Shown one piece after another: positions 8,220 to 13,878 of a stretch of 37,303 nucleotides of DNA; position 1 is the stretch's first letter, and every line of letters begins with the position of its first letter. Both the position numbers and the translations under genes were made by a program. The DNA lies in assembly GCA_027035575.1 (NCBI GenBank), contig JALVUQ010000060.1:1-37303 (forward strand), written 5' to 3'. The notes beneath the pieces were generated by a model. That model searched no databases. It was not told the origin of the DNA and saw only the letters and a program-made list of their open reading frames with translations. The DNA comes from Desulfurellales bacterium (GTDB lineage: Bacteria; Campylobacterota_A; Desulfurellia; Desulfurellales; Hippeaceae).

Positions 8220-10235
8220 TTACACATTAAAACTCTTTGTTAAATAGTAGGCTTGAGAGTCAACCCTCCTCAAACCAGCAGCTTTTACCTTTTTATATTT
8301 ATCGCCGTTAAGCTGCCAGGCATTTACATTATCGTTAAAATGCAGCTTTAACAACTTAAACAGTCTCTTCTTTAAAACTGGTTCGTCTATCTCAATCATA
8401 CTCTCCACGCGCCTGTCCATATTCCTTTCCATAAAATCGGCAGACGATATAAACACCCTCTCATTGCCGTTGTTATAAAAATAGAATACGCGGGGGTGCT
8501 CCAAAAATCGTCCTACGATACTGACAACCCTGATATTTTCGCTTACTCCCTTTATATCCGTTTTCAGACCGCAAACACCCCTGACTATCAAATCCACCTT
8601 TACTCCGGCTTGCGAGGCTTCATACAGCTTTTCAATAAGTTTCTCGTCTATCAGAGAATTAACCTTAATTATTATGTGCCCTTTTGCTTTGGATTTAGCC
8701 GTCATTATTTCATCATCAATAAGCTTTATCAGCTTTTTCCTTAAATAGTTGGGTGCTAAGGTTATCTTCTTCCATTTTTCATAATCCGTATATCCCATCA
8801 GGTAGTTGAAGATGTTTGCATTATCAATTCCTATCTCTTCCTTAGCTGTTATATAATCCAAATCGGTATATATTTTTGCCGTTTCTTCATTATAATTGCC
8901 GGTTGCAATATGGCTGTACTCCACAATCCTTCCATTCTCATTTCTTGTTATCAAAATATTTTTTGTGTGCACTTTCAAACCAGGAATACCGTATGTGACT
9001 ATACACCCGGCATCTTCAAGCTCTTTAGCCCACTCAACATTCATCTGCTCGTCAAAACGGGCTTTAAGCTCTATAACAACGCAAACCGATTTGCCGTTTT
9101 CTGCGGCTTTTATAAGGTTTTTCACAATACTTGAGTCTCTGTTTACTCTATAGATGGTCATCTTTATGGATAGCGTCATTTCATCGTTAGCTGCTATTTC
9201 AACCAATTTGGAGATAAAAGAGAAGTCGTTATAAGGTCTGTAGAGTAAAATATCGTTGTTTTTTATATACTCAAATATTGAAGAGTCAGGCTTTACTCTA
9301 TAAGGATAGTAACTTTTAAAAGGTTTAAAATACAATTTGTCGTTTTCAACTCTCAAGTTAAAAAAGGAGGTCAAATCTATAAAATCAAATGTTTCGTATA
9401 TATATTTTTTTTCAATTTTCAGGTTATCCATAAGCAGTTTTTCTATCTTCTCAGACGGCTTTTTATTTATCTCAACTCTGACGATTTGCCCTTTCCTTCT
9501 TTTGTCAAGCTCCTGCTCCACCAAAAGCAGCAAATCCTCAGAGCCCTCCTCTTCAATTGTCAAATCGGCATCTCTTGTTACTCTGATAATGTAGTAATCC
9601 TTAATTTTGTAGTTTCTGAACAACTCGTTAAGTTTATTTGCAACTATATGCTCAAGTGTAAAAACATAACGTTCGCTACCCACATCCCTGACATAAATTT
9701 TCTTTAATTTATCAGGAATGATTACAACGGAGACATACTCTCTTCCTTCCTTTTCCATTTCAACTACAAATGCACTTCTTTTGTTATATATAAAAGGAAA
9801 CGGATTGGATGCGCTTAATGTTACCGGAGAAATGGCAGGTAAAATCGTCTGTTCAAACACTAGCTCGCAGAACTCAAAAACACACTCGTTAAATTTATCT
9901 TCAATAAATACGGAGTGCTTCTCCAATTGAGATTTTATCGAAAGAAAGTATTTTTCCTGCTTTTTTAAAAGCCGCTCCACTTTCTTTCTTATATGATGCA
10001 GTACCTCCTTTGGTGTTAATCCCGCCCTATCCTTCTTGTCGTATCCGAGTTCTATCTGGTCTATGACGCCGGCTACCCTTATCATAAAAAATTCATCGAG
10101 ATTGTTCGAAAATATCGATATAAATTTTAGACGCTCCATCAACGGAAAACGTCTCTCTCTCGACAGCTCCAAAACACGCTCGTTAAAATCGAGCCAACTG
10201 AGTTCCCTGTTTATAAAAGGAAATTTTTCACTCAA
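8220..10235 (-). CDS. ppk: polyphosphate kinase PPK1
   Basis: Makes inorganic polyphosphate from ATP, reversibly, at the inner membrane. The 671-residue protein has the PPK N-terminal domain (FINRELSWLDFNERVLE), the middle domain and the two PLD-like catalytic domains. The autophosphorylated histidine is in KVHTKNILIT at about residue 423, and the second catalytic histidine is in LEHPRVFYFYNN; the DFMERNMDRR motif is intact. The likely start is a TTG at 10235 with GGAG seven bases upstream, overlapping the end of the preceding Ppx/GppA-like gene by 8 bases. Two Ppx/GppA-family genes lie directly upstream, so synthesis and degradation or regulation of polyphosphate are co-transcribed. Confidence 0.95.
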   Translation of the reverse strand: MSEKFPFINRELSWLDFNERVLELSRERRFPLMERLKFISIFSNNLDEFFMIRVAGVIDQIELGYDKKDRAGLTPKEVLHHIRKKVERLLKKQEKYFLSIKSQLEKHSVFIEDKFNECVFEFCELVFEQTILPAISPVTLSASNPFPFIYNKRSAFVVEMEKEGREYVSVVIIPDKLKKIYVRDVGSERYVFTLEHIVANKLNELFRNYKIKDYYIIRVTRDADLTIEEEGSEDLLLLVEQELDKRRKGQIVRVEINKKPSEKIEKLLMDNLKIEKKYIYETFDFIDLTSFFNLRVENDKLYFKPFKSYYPYRVKPDSSIFEYIKNNDILLYRPYNDFSFISKLVEIAANDEMTLSIKMTIYRVNRDSSIVKNLIKAAENGKSVCVVIELKARFDEQMNVEWAKELEDAGCIVTYGIPGLKVHTKNILITRNENGRIVEYSHIATGNYNEETAKIYTDLDYITAKEEIGIDNANIFNYLMGYTDYEKWKKITLAPNYLRKKLIKLIDDEIMTAKSKAKGHIIIKVNSLIDEKLIEKLYEASQAGVKVDLIVRGVCGLKTDIKGVSENIRVVSIVGRFLEHPRVFYFYNNGNERVFISSADFMERNMDRRVESMIEIDEPVLKKRLFKLLKLHFNDNVNAWQLNGDKYKKVKAAGLRRVDSQAYYLTKSFNV

Positions 10236-11736
10236 TCTCCTGCTCCGTTTCTATTTTTATTCCGAAAAGCTCCTCAAACAATCTTGCCTTTTTCTTTAAA
10301 GAAACCATCTCGAAAAATATAAAATTATCGCTGATTAACTTGATTTTTATGCTGTTTTTATCAAGCTTTATCTTGAATTCTTTAATTAGCTGCTTGTGGC
10401 TTGCATCCAAGGCATCTGCAATCCTAAGCAAAGAAACAAGCTTTTTAAGCATAAATGTATCCTCTTGGCTTAAATAGTTGTAGAGCCTTAAATACACATC
10501 TTTCTCTTTTTCCTTATGCAGTAGGGCAATAAGAGCTATTATTCTGCTGTCCTTTTCTCCGATTTGCGGAAGATGAAGGGAGTTTATTATGTAGTACGAA
10601 TGCTCTTCGTGATTTTCCTCATTGACATAATATCCTACATCGTGCAAAAGAGCAACTATCTCAAGCAGTTGTCTGTGTTTTTTGTCAAGCAGATGGTGGT
10701 TTTGAAGCATATCAAACAATTTTAGAGCACAATCTCTGACATACAAGGCGTGTTTTTTATCGAAATTATACTTTTCTCCTATATTCAATATTGTCTTTTC
10801 AAGGTACTCTTTGAGATTTTTTTGTTTGTAGCTTTTTGAATAGTACATCAAAAGCTTTCTTGGAAATGTGGTCTTGCTGAAATAAAACAAATCCGTTTCA
10901 AAAAGTTTCAAAACATTCAAATAGACACAAACCATTGGCTTTAATACTTCCGCTTCGTTACGCCTGATAGAAAATCTGTCTCTAATAAAATCAACGTTCT
11001 CTTTTTTAATTTCATCAAAAAGAAACTCTATATCTTTTTGAGCAAGAAAGTTATTTGAAGGTGAGAAGATTCCCCTTAATATGTTAATGGAGCTTCCCGA
11101 AAACACAACATTTTTAATCTTAAACGAAGATATGACATATTCAACCCCTGAAATCATACTCTCAATGTATCTGTTGTACGCATAAACCTTATTTTTTTCA
11201 TCCAATTCTTTAAATATTTCATTCAGCCTCAGGCTTCCGAAGCGAAGGGAATCTGCATAGAGTATCGTCTTGCCTTTTACAACGGCTATGGAAACATTAC
11301 CGCTTGAAACGTTAACAAGTACAACCCCGTTCTTTTCCAGTCTGTTAAATCTTTCAAATTCGTTTTTAATTCCTATATACCTGATATAGAGCTCTTCATA
11401 CGGAGTTAAAACCCTAATCTTCATTCCGAGTTTTTTATCCATAAAGTCCAAGAAGAAATCTCTGTTTTTTGCCTCTCTCACACCGCTTGTAGCGATGACT
11501 TCAAATTTTTTTCCAATCCTGTACTCGTTCATTTTTTCTTTGAATTTACTTAAAATATCGTATGCCTCGTGTATGCTCGCAGAGGATATAAGACCGTTAG
11601 AGAACGTATCTTTTCCCAAAGACAGCGACTTAACCAGATACTCTATCTGTTTGTATTTTCCGTTTAAAAAAGAGCCTATCTCCATTCTGAAAGCGCTGGT
11701 TCCGATATTTATCACGGCAAAAAGACCGTTTTTCAT
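10228..11736 (-). CDS. degenerate Ppx/GppA-family protein with HD domain (likely non-catalytic)
   Basis: 502-residue paralog of the next gene upstream, with an ASKHA-fold phosphatase part (about 1-300) and an HD-type C-terminal domain (HDVGYYV, EEHSYYI). The key residues have changed. The first phosphate loop reads NIGTSAFRM instead of DIGSNSVRM. The second loop, normally DIGGGSxE, reads VSSGNVSI, which replaces the conserved Asp by Val143 and the Glu by Ile150. A Glu-Glu pair at 114-115 remains at the catalytic-base position. Length and fold are otherwise conserved and the frame is intact, so it is probably a retained pseudo-enzyme, perhaps sensing (p)ppGpp or regulating its active neighbour or PPK, rather than a decaying gene. 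Starts in an ATGA overlap. Confidence 0.82.
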   Translation of the reverse strand: MKNGLFAVINIGTSAFRMEIGSFLNGKYKQIEYLVKSLSLGKDTFSNGLISSASIHEAYDILSKFKEKMNEYRIGKKFEVIATSGVREAKNRDFFLDFMDKKLGMKIRVLTPYEELYIRYIGIKNEFERFNRLEKNGVVLVNVSSGNVSIAVVKGKTILYADSLRFGSLRLNEIFKELDEKNKVYAYNRYIESMISGVEYVISSFKIKNVVFSGSSINILRGIFSPSNNFLAQKDIEFLFDEIKKENVDFIRDRFSIRRNEAEVLKPMVCVYLNVLKLFETDLFYFSKTTFPRKLLMYYSKSYKQKNLKEYLEKTILNIGEKYNFDKKHALYVRDCALKLFDMLQNHHLLDKKHRQLLEIVALLHDVGYYVNEENHEEHSYYIINSLHLPQIGEKDSRIIALIALLHKEKEKDVYLRLYNYLSQEDTFMLKKLVSLLRIADALDASHKQLIKEFKIKLDKNSIKIKLISDNFIFFEMVSLKKKARLFEELFGIKIETEQEIE

Positions 11737-13229
11737 CTTGCCACCGCCTTAACATTGAAGACCTCTTCAAACAAATTCTTTTTACTCTCAAATGCGTTAA
11801 TTTCCAGCAGAAACTCTTTTTTGGATGTAAATTGAAAAAAAACAACGGTGTTTTGAACTTCAACATCAACGCAGGAAACCCTTGCATCGTGGGTCCTGTC
11901 AACTGCATCCGCAATTCTTAAAATTGCGGAAAGGGCTCTTACAATATATTTTTCTTCATCGTTTAGAGCGTTAAAGTTTTGATGAGTGCTTTTCGGCGGG
12001 CTCTTTCTGTGGTATCTTGCCACATTGGCAATTAATTCCACATCTTTGGAAGAATACCCTATAAAATCTGAGTTCTTTATCAGGTAGTAGCTGTGTTTGT
12101 GGTGTTTGGAATAAGATATATAGTTTCCGCAGTCGTGTAAAATCGCTGCTGCTTCAAGTATATTTTTCTCTCTGTCTTGAAGTTTGTGCAATTTTTTTGT
12201 CTTATCGAATATCGACAAAGCCAATTTTTTAACCTGCATTGCATGGGCTTTCTCAAAGTTAAACTTTTTGCCAATCTGAATTATCCTTGCCAGTCTCAAA
12301 CTATGGTGCTTTTTTTGAAAATCCAAAACAATACCGGCTTTATTTATCGTATCTATCGTTAAACCCGTTCTCAAACCGCCGCTTAGGGTGTAAAATCCGC
12401 TTTTTTGAGCCTTATACAGGATTTTGTCTATTAACAGAGCCGCAGGCAATACTATATCGGCTCTTTTTGGCTCAAGATACTTAATATTTGTTCTTTCTTC
12501 TATGTTCTTTCCGATAATCTCTCTTAGAAACCCTTTCAAAAACTTTCTGTCAACATACTTTACCCTATCGCTATTTCCTTTACCTGCAATATAGGATATA
12601 TTGTTCAATGTCCCGCCGAGACACACTATGTGCTCTATTTTATCATCAATGGGCAGGGCGGAAATCTCTTTATCCATATCTTCTTTAAATCGAATTACTT
12701 CGGATTCTTTGACGGGGTCGCTTTTAAAATACCTGTGCAAAAGTTTATTGCAGCCAAAAGGCGTTGATTTTGAAAAAACAGGTTTTTCATTGTCAACCAC
12801 CATAAACTCGGCACTTCCGCCTCCTATATCCGTTATCAAAACCCTTGAATCTTTCAGCTCGAAATTCGCACTGACACCCAAAAAACCAAGATAGGCTTCG
12901 TTTTGACCGTCAATAATTTCTATCGAGATACCGGTTGATTGTTTTATTTTATCAATTACATAATCGGCATTTGAAGCCTCTCTGAAAGAGGCGGTAGCTA
13001 TTGCCCTAACGGTGTTTACAGATTTTGAAAGATAAAGCTCCTTCATCTCGTTTAATGTTGTAATGAGTTTTTCTATTGTGGTTTCCTTGATTAGTCCATC
13101 CAAAAATACATCGTCCCCCAACCTCAACATCCTTTTATACTCTTCTACAACATCATACATACCGTCTTGTACTCTCGATATCTGCATTCTAACCGAATTG
13201 CTTCCTATATCAATAACCGCAATATTCAT
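11733..13229 (-). CDS. ppx: Ppx/GppA exopolyphosphatase/pppGpp phosphatase with HD domain
   Basis: Hydrolyses terminal phosphates of polyphosphate and/or pppGpp. All expected sites are present: D7 in DIGSNS, the catalytic Glu E111 in GQNEAYLG, D134 and the glycine loop DIGGGSAE (134-141). The C-terminal HD-like domain (LHDCGNYIS and following histidines) makes a 498-residue, long-form Ppx. Sequence alone does not separate polyphosphate from pppGpp specificity, but the neighbouring ppk favours polyphosphate. GGAAGG precedes the ATG by about six bases. First gene of the ppx - degenerate paralog - ppk operon. Confidence 0.92.
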   Translation of the reverse strand: MNIAVIDIGSNSVRMQISRVQDGMYDVVEEYKRMLRLGDDVFLDGLIKETTIEKLITTLNEMKELYLSKSVNTVRAIATASFREASNADYVIDKIKQSTGISIEIIDGQNEAYLGFLGVSANFELKDSRVLITDIGGGSAEFMVVDNEKPVFSKSTPFGCNKLLHRYFKSDPVKESEVIRFKEDMDKEISALPIDDKIEHIVCLGGTLNNISYIAGKGNSDRVKYVDRKFLKGFLREIIGKNIEERTNIKYLEPKRADIVLPAALLIDKILYKAQKSGFYTLSGGLRTGLTIDTINKAGIVLDFQKKHHSLRLARIIQIGKKFNFEKAHAMQVKKLALSIFDKTKKLHKLQDREKNILEAAAILHDCGNYISYSKHHKHSYYLIKNSDFIGYSSKDVELIANVARYHRKSPPKSTHQNFNALNDEEKYIVRALSAILRIADAVDRTHDARVSCVDVEVQNTVVFFQFTSKKEFLLEINAFESKKNLFEEVFNVKAVAR

Positions 13230-13327: not shown

Positions 13328-13362
13328 CAAAAAAGCCCGCTGCCTTTTTAAAGACAACGGGC
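13328..13362 (-). terminator. rho-independent terminator after the ferritin-like gene
   Basis: Read on the minus strand, GCCCGTTG at 13362-13355 pairs with CAGCGGGC at 13342-13335 (8 bp with one G-U), followed by six T. It ends the peroxiredoxin-ferritin transcript before the ppx promoter region. Confidence 0.8.
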
Positions 13363-13383: not shown

Positions 13384-13878
13384 CTATTTATTCAACATTA
13401 CCGATACATCTTCCAATAACGACTGCAAATCCTCTTCGTGTTCGACCTCATCTTCAAGTATTTGCAAAGCGAGATTGTAGGTCACGTGGTCTTTTTGAGA
13501 AACCTCTTTTATTATATCGTTATAAACATTGATGGCGCACTGCTCACCCTTTATGTTCTGCTCCAGGATTTTTTTAACGAAGTAATCGCTCGGTTGGTCA
13601 TAGCCGCAGTTGGTAAAATCAAACCACTTCTTGGGAGACATGACAGGCTCACCGCCAAGCTGTATGATTCTGTTTGCAACCATATCGGCGTGCCTTAACT
13701 CGTCGTTGGCGTGTTCAATCAATTCCGCAATAGCAGCTTCCTTCATAGGACCTGCAACAACCTTTGCACCGAGCCAATATTGATAATAAGCAAGCCACTC
13801 ATCCGCAAAAGCCCTGTTTAACAGTTCCAACACCCTGTTGACATCCATATTGACAATTTCAATTCCTCTTGTCCCCAT
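13384..13878 (-). CDS. Dps-like ferritin (DPSL/thioferritin type)
   Basis: A 164-residue four-helix ferritin that would oxidise and store iron while consuming peroxide. Diiron ligands fit E27, E60-x-x-H63, E112 and E144-x-x-H147. Two cysteines, C91 (TNCGYD) and C114 (GEQCAI), match the paired cysteines beside the metal site of Dps-like (DPSL) proteins of archaea and anaerobic bacteria, which separates it from ordinary Dps and bacterioferritin. AGGAGGTG with good spacing supports the ATG at 13878. It is 15 bases downstream of the peroxiredoxin gene, so the two probably form a peroxide-defence operon. Confidence 0.85.
   Translation of the reverse strand: MGTRGIEIVNMDVNRVLELLNRAFADEWLAYYQYWLGAKVVAGPMKEAAIAELIEHANDELRHADMVANRIIQLGGEPVMSPKKWFDFTNCGYDQPSDYFVKKILEQNIKGEQCAINVYNDIIKEVSQKDHVTYNLALQILEDEVEHEEDLQSLLEDVSVMLNK

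Follow-up and report, generated by a model that had tools for sequence, protein, structure and literature searches.

A pseudoenzyme branch of the Ppx/GppA family, here named ppxD, is real and conserved, and four phylum-level groups share its fixed place between ppx and ppk1. Polyphosphate (polyP) is a phosphate polymer made by polyphosphate kinase (PPK) and broken down by exopolyphosphatase; to our knowledge, the control of bacterial PPK1 is poorly understood. The window, by which we mean the whole 37,303-nucleotide stretch of Desulfurellales DNA analyzed here, carries ppx, ppxD, and then ppk1 on its minus strand, with overlapping genes (Table 1). An earlier note, made from the letters of this DNA, had described two tandem Ppx/GppA-HD genes of equal length, the downstream one between ppx and ppk, which agrees with our annotation: the products of 498 and 502 aa are 27% identical over their length, and the overlaps measure 4 and 8 bp. 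The ATGA overlap is predicted to couple translation of ppx and ppxD, so that ppxD would sit coupled between ppx and ppk1. The window ppxD, a full-length Ppx/GppA-HD protein, matched PF02541 with 62.4 bits (cutoff, 27) and PF21447 with 81.3 bits (cutoff, 27.3); both families were also matched by all 11 ppxD proteins checked and, above the curated cutoffs, by the window ppx. Family libraries match ppxD proteins only as Ppx/GppA phosphatases. The full catalytic set is present in the window ppx (D7, R83, E111, D134, and E141), as are both catalytic histidines, His423 and His580, in PPK1. The same genome (G000) has a third, short Ppx/GppA gene (contig C86, L042, 1979-2902, plus strand; 307 aa), which is devoid of the HD domain and has an intact DLGGGSTE loop.

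Table 1. Features of the ppx-ppxD-ppk1 operon in the window
Feature	Coordinates	Strand	Basis or remark
ppk1, polyphosphate kinase 1; TTG start within the 3' end of ppxD	8220..10235	(-)	ORF; TIGR03705, 769 bits
ppxD, Ppx/GppA plus domain III (HD) pseudoenzyme, 502 aa	10228..11736	(-)	ORF; PF02541 and PF21447
ppx, canonical exopolyphosphatase, 498 aa	11733..13229	(-)	ORF; PF02541, 181 bits; catalytic residues
Overlap of ppxD end and ppk1 TTG start, 8 bp	10228..10235	(-)	
Overlap of ppx stop and ppxD start, 4 bp, ATGA	11733..11736	(-)	
His365-Asp366 codons of ppxD, intact HD pair	10639..10644	(-)	Alignment
Pro292 codon of ppxD, replacing the REG-motif Arg	10861..10863	(-)	Alignment
Degenerate phosphate-2 loop of ppxD, Asn142-Val-Ser-Ser-Gly-Asn-Val-Ser149	11290..11313	(-)	Canonical loop D-I-G-G-G-S-A-E
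Glu115 codon of ppxD, the kept E114/E121 equivalent	11392..11394	(-)	Alignment
Asn10 codon of ppxD, replacing Mg-binding Asp7 of the phosphate-1 loop	11707..11709	(-)	Alignment
Terminator-like hairpin between the operon and the upstream 164-aa gene (13384-13878)	13335..13362	(-)	Pattern match only

The active site of ppxD is best read against that of Deinococcus radiodurans PPX (DrPPX), and correspondences are given below as DrPPX numbers followed by window ppxD numbers. In DrPPX, a water molecule is contacted by E114, D136, and E143, while D7 binds Mg2+; alanine mutants of these residues have lowered or abolished activity. The pairing of E114 with R86 orders a helix, and H14, K35, R37, R271, and R302 touch or attract polyP (PMC11234463). 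In Mycobacterium tuberculosis Ppx, the D136/E143 equivalents are predicted metal ligands and the R86/E114 equivalents are implicated in hydrolysis (PMC3411833). E. coli PPX mutants in E121, D143, and E150 are cited in PMC5417653 as having residual activity only. Alignment revealed that all three metal and water acids are gone from the window ppxD (Asp7 to Asn10, Asp136 to Asn142, and Glu143 to Ser149) and that the phosphate-2 loop has changed from DIGGGSAE to NVSSGNVS, leaving one of three glycines. Basic residues of the polyP path are likewise absent (K35 to Val35, R271 to Glu261, and the REG Arg to Pro292). Glu115 preserves the catalytic Glu (E114 of DrPPX and E121 of E. coli), the E114/R86 pair is likewise present, and the HD ligands are complete (H329, H365-D366, H376, H407, and D441). 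Given the residue roles in DrPPX, what remains in ppxD is the structural pair, and what is missing are the metal and water acids; from this loss we infer that it is likely nonhydrolytic. The loss of the phosphate-2 Asp and Glu and of all but one glycine had been noticed before. However, the replacing residues had been given as Val143 and Ile150, one position off from the actual Asn142 and Ser149, and the note had missed Asn10 (D7), Pro292 (the REG Arg), and the retained Glu115.

To follow the gene across genomes, we searched the window's phylum, three further phylum-level groups, and a domain-wide sample; ppxD was found in 60 genomes, and 51 operons from four phylum-level groups were read. The order ppx-ppxD-ppk is present in 50 of the 51, mostly with the short overlaps, the exception being G708, in which ppxD-ppk stands without ppx on the same contig. 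Equivalents of both D136 and E143 are found in 0/51 ppxD proteins, whereas 49/49 partner ppx proteins keep them along with D7 and E114; because of this difference, chance is excluded as the cause of the loss. The D136 site holds Asn in 43 ppxD copies, Thr in 4, Tyr in 3, and Val in 1, and no copy has Glu at the E143 site (0/51). Among the 45 copies that cover the first loop, the D7 site is Asn in 37 and Asp in 8; the loop is absent from the alignment in the other 6, with an N terminus that is shorter or a start that was called late. Glu115 is present in 51/51 copies, S145-G146 is invariant, and Arg87, the R86 equivalent, is found in 47/51, with Lys in 4. The polyP-path changes recur as well: K35 is replaced by Val or Ile, R271 by Glu in 30/48, and the REG Arg by Pro or Ser.

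ppxD is under purifying selection. The median pairwise dN/dS (Nei-Gojobori, own script, 17 to 19 usable pairs per gene out of 21) was 0.071 for ppxD, 0.094 for ppx, and 0.077 for ppk, and all 51 ppxD reading frames are open. Thus, the earlier guess that the gene is conserved proved true in 51 operons: an ortholog alignment with a dN/dS check found the substitutions shared across phyla at a median close to the neighbors' values, and a search for random decay or frameshifts found none in 51 copies. The proposal of selection for a nonenzymatic role is accordingly well supported by shared substitutions, low dN/dS, and the lack of frame decay.

Judged from mean column entropies, the HD site is under less of this selection than the altered cleft and the domain that contains it: in the N-terminal domain, ppxD shows no less conservation than ppx (1.58 versus 1.70), whereas in domain III it shows less (1.87 versus 1.55). 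Conserved cleft positions of ppxD are R17, T83, R87, N91, E115, and S145-G146-N147. HD ligands are gone from ppxD in families f313 and f314 and in parts of f167. The claim that frame and HD region stay intact thus applies to the window protein and fails for the HD region in several ppxD lineages, and the HD domain was ruled out as the general conserved function of ppxD on the same ground. Domain III varies in other ways. Most HD ligands are gone from ppxD and kept by the partner ppx at L221-L232 (G707-G719). Six operons (L127 5864-8907, L207-L210, and L212; G565, G703, G705, G702, G696, and G697) have a canonical ppx without the HD ligands H329, H365, and D441, and their ppxD is without H365 as well. 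In three others (L242-L244; G729, G732, and G733), domain III of ppxD carries an insertion of about 80 to 90 residues. A scan of genome contigs returned one relative only, and the nearest named record is a Desulfurellaceae MAG.

A tree of 72 Ppx sequences recovered ppx as one clade and ppxD as another, both with full support, and this separation was repeated with the catalytic columns masked. The operon's ppx grouped with canonical Ppx, and ppxD was placed on the side of single-copy Ppx-like genes that lie directly before ppk in spirochaetes and others. By these sequence comparisons, ppxD is one ancient clade and no recent copy of its neighbor. The earlier picture of a paralog gone dead beside its copy is not supported, since ppx and ppxD come from separate clades, both old; a recent tandem duplication was ruled out by the fully supported separate clades and the 27% identity. 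Cross-phylum groupings, such as G692 with G005 and G016 with G478, recur in both the ppx and ppxD trees, suggesting that the whole operon moves together.

Outside these operons, the strict set D7-R86-E114-D136-E143 is found in 2 of 36 ppk-adjacent Ppx genes and in 7 of 11 Ppx genes not seen adjoining ppk. Many of the 36 carry D to E changes, which may be harmless, and in 21 the R271 site is acidic (Glu or Asp), which is also the case in ppxD. For the dead state of ppxD and of degenerate spirochaete Ppx, the AU test did not separate one origin from two (P = 0.43). In those spirochaetes (L072-L078), each genome has a single full-length Ppx match, which sits directly before ppk, with D136 changed to His or Ser and E143 to Arg, Gln, or Leu. 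Four further HD-Ppx proteins (L129-L131, from G527, G590, and G454, and L143, from G066), three of which adjoin ppk, keep the acidic D136/E143 positions and have lost the catalytic Glu, with E114 replaced by Ile, Val, or Gln; this is possibly another route to inactivity. At L134 (G431), ppk is flanked by one Ppx-HD gene on each side, and the one before ppk has E143 changed to Ser.

Compared with known HD-like Ppx/GppA proteins (E. coli PPX, 1u6z; D. radiodurans PPX, 8jgo; H. pylori PPX/GppA, 6pc0), ppxD has the same domains throughout its length and keeps the E114 and R86 equivalents; it differs in lacking D7, D136, E143, the polyP-path Lys/Arg, and the REG motif and in forming a separate monophyletic clade. 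Proteins of this kind are also the best fold matches of an AlphaFold2 model of ppxD built from three sequences (mean pLDDT 68, pTM 0.46). Foldseek returned Ppx/GppA entries as best matches (best E value, 5.7e-23), with TM-scores of about 0.4 to 0.5 to full-length entries. The model supports a Ppx/GppA fold and is too weak for detail of cleft, dimer, or interface. Single-copy ppk-adjacent Ppx-like proteins (for example, L072-L095, L129, L130, L142, and L143) share with ppxD its side of the tree, the place directly before ppk, and in most cases Glu or Asp at the R271 site, and some also lack D136 and E143. Unlike ppxD, they have no tandem canonical ppx, belong to another clade, and are mostly acidic at D136/E143 (often D to E). 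M. tuberculosis PPX1 and PPX2 (Rv0496 and Rv1026) are an earlier example of paired Ppx/GppA paralogues that differ in activity, although neither has lost its catalytic residues and their alignment to E. coli PPX is confined to its N-terminal region (PMC3411833). A search of the open-access literature, with subscription papers outside its scope, found no description of an inactive Ppx paralogue or of a Ppx-like PPK regulator.

To ask which neighbor ppxD serves, we compared its distribution with those of ppk and ppx. ppxD and ppk occur together in 60 genomes (7 + 37 + 15 + 1), ppxD alone in none, ppk alone in 4, and neither in 43. Three of the four genomes with ppk and without ppxD belong to family f307 and have a short Ppx, which lies behind a divergent ppk in the one of the three whose position was checked; the fourth is 57% complete. 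In at least five genera (g3, g303, g463, g464, and g473), genomes differ in whether they carry ppk, and ppxD follows the same pattern. In genus g469, represented here by two incomplete genomes, G708 has ppxD-ppk on one contig and ppx elsewhere (L255, 820-2337) with an in-frame TAA, and G709 has an intact lone ppx (L249, 1907-3427). Across 46 genomes, the partial correlation of evolutionary distances was 0.69 for ppxD-ppk given ppx (0.64 to 0.74 in 70% subsamples) and 0.25 for ppxD-ppx given ppk (0.17 to 0.33), and a second, simpler distance gave 0.63 and 0.33; these correlations are crude, and a noisier ppx tree could produce the difference. Because of the co-occurrence, the g469 split, and the distance correlations, linkage and covariation lean toward PPK1 rather than Ppx as the partner. 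The earlier note had left the role open among a Ppx dimer partner, a ppGpp sensor, and a PPK regulator. The evidence leans toward the last, since ppxD remains beside ppk where ppx has disappeared or been relocated and covaries more with ppk than with ppx, and since its nearest single-copy relatives adjoin ppk, often with no second full-length Ppx found in the genome.

We tentatively favor ppxD as a nonhydrolytic Ppx-like partner acting with PPK1. The N-terminal ASKHA domain keeps a strongly conserved cleft and would have lost polyP cutting, having neither the three acids for Mg2+ and the attacking water nor the basic polyP path, now neutral or acidic. Made in step with PPK1, ppxD would most likely serve as its regulatory or scaffolding partner; polyP synthesis might be tuned through a small phosphorylated ligand in the altered cleft, and hydrolysis would be left to the canonical ppx, the first gene of the operon. 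Against this, the f307 genomes indicate that PPK1 does not always need ppxD, co-loss within an operon can be a single deletion, and the ATGA coupling of ppxD to ppx is as tight as its coupling to ppk. The last point fits a different arrangement, in which ppxD would pair, as the inactive half of a heterodimer, with the active Ppx encoded just upstream and would regulate that enzyme or position polyP for it. Ppx proteins of solved structure form dimers, and the dimer interface affects activity (PMC11234463); the two genes are of equal length with the ATGA overlap in most operons, they are found together in one phylum after another and their trees are alike, and all but one intact HD-ppx read in these groups has ppxD in the same genome. 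The heterodimer nevertheless seems unlikely to us, given the weaker distance correlation with ppx, the g469 case, in which ppxD stays with ppk while a lone ppx persists in G709, and the related degenerate spirochaete Ppx, which adjoin ppk in genomes where a second full-length Ppx match was not found.

A conserved cleft (T83, R87, N91, E115, S145-G146-N147, and R17) in a protein that should have lost catalysis could also mean that ppxD is a free sensor of (p)ppGpp, Pi, PPi, or a nucleotide and signals to other proteins, like yeast Rtg2p. H. pylori PPX/GppA E143A was crystallized with ppGpp (6pc1), and Rtg2p, a signaling protein of the Ppx/GppA fold, has Gln for E150 and functionally needs its E121 equivalent (PMC5417653). 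The resemblance to Rtg2p lies in the kind of sequence change only (PMC5417653): Rtg2p is eukaryotic and keeps its D143 equivalent, whereas ppxD lacks that residue and is tied to ppk. This strict tie, like the operon structure, speaks for a role specific to polyP, making a free sensor quite improbable. No likelier is a ppxD that is still an enzyme, through an HD domain that hydrolyzes a nucleotide or a cleft that uses other residues; the intact HD ligands of the window protein and the invariant Glu115 would allow it, but H365, D366, H376, H407, or D441 is gone in several lineages that keep the N-terminal cleft, domain III is the less conserved part, and all three acids, the Mg ligand included, are gone together in most copies. 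That ppxD is a decaying duplicate, as the lost catalytic residues alone might suggest, has a negligible chance of being right: 51 open frames and the low dN/dS of 0.071 rule it out, as does the single ancient clade across four phylum-level groups.

The preferred PPK1 partnership can be extended to the relatives of ppxD. ppxD would then be the clearest member of an unrecognized lineage of Ppx-like proteins that are encoded beside ppk1 in several phyla, whose exopolyphosphatase chemistry has been abandoned or has become weaker, and that act as regulatory subunits devoted to PPK1; we regard this wider proposal as conceivable and rather doubtful. Counting ppx genes would overstate the polyP-degrading capacity of the groups with ppxD and of some spirochaetes. 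Flanked by ppx and ppk in each of the four phylum-level groups, the conserved ppxD is a concrete candidate regulator of PPK1 or Ppx.
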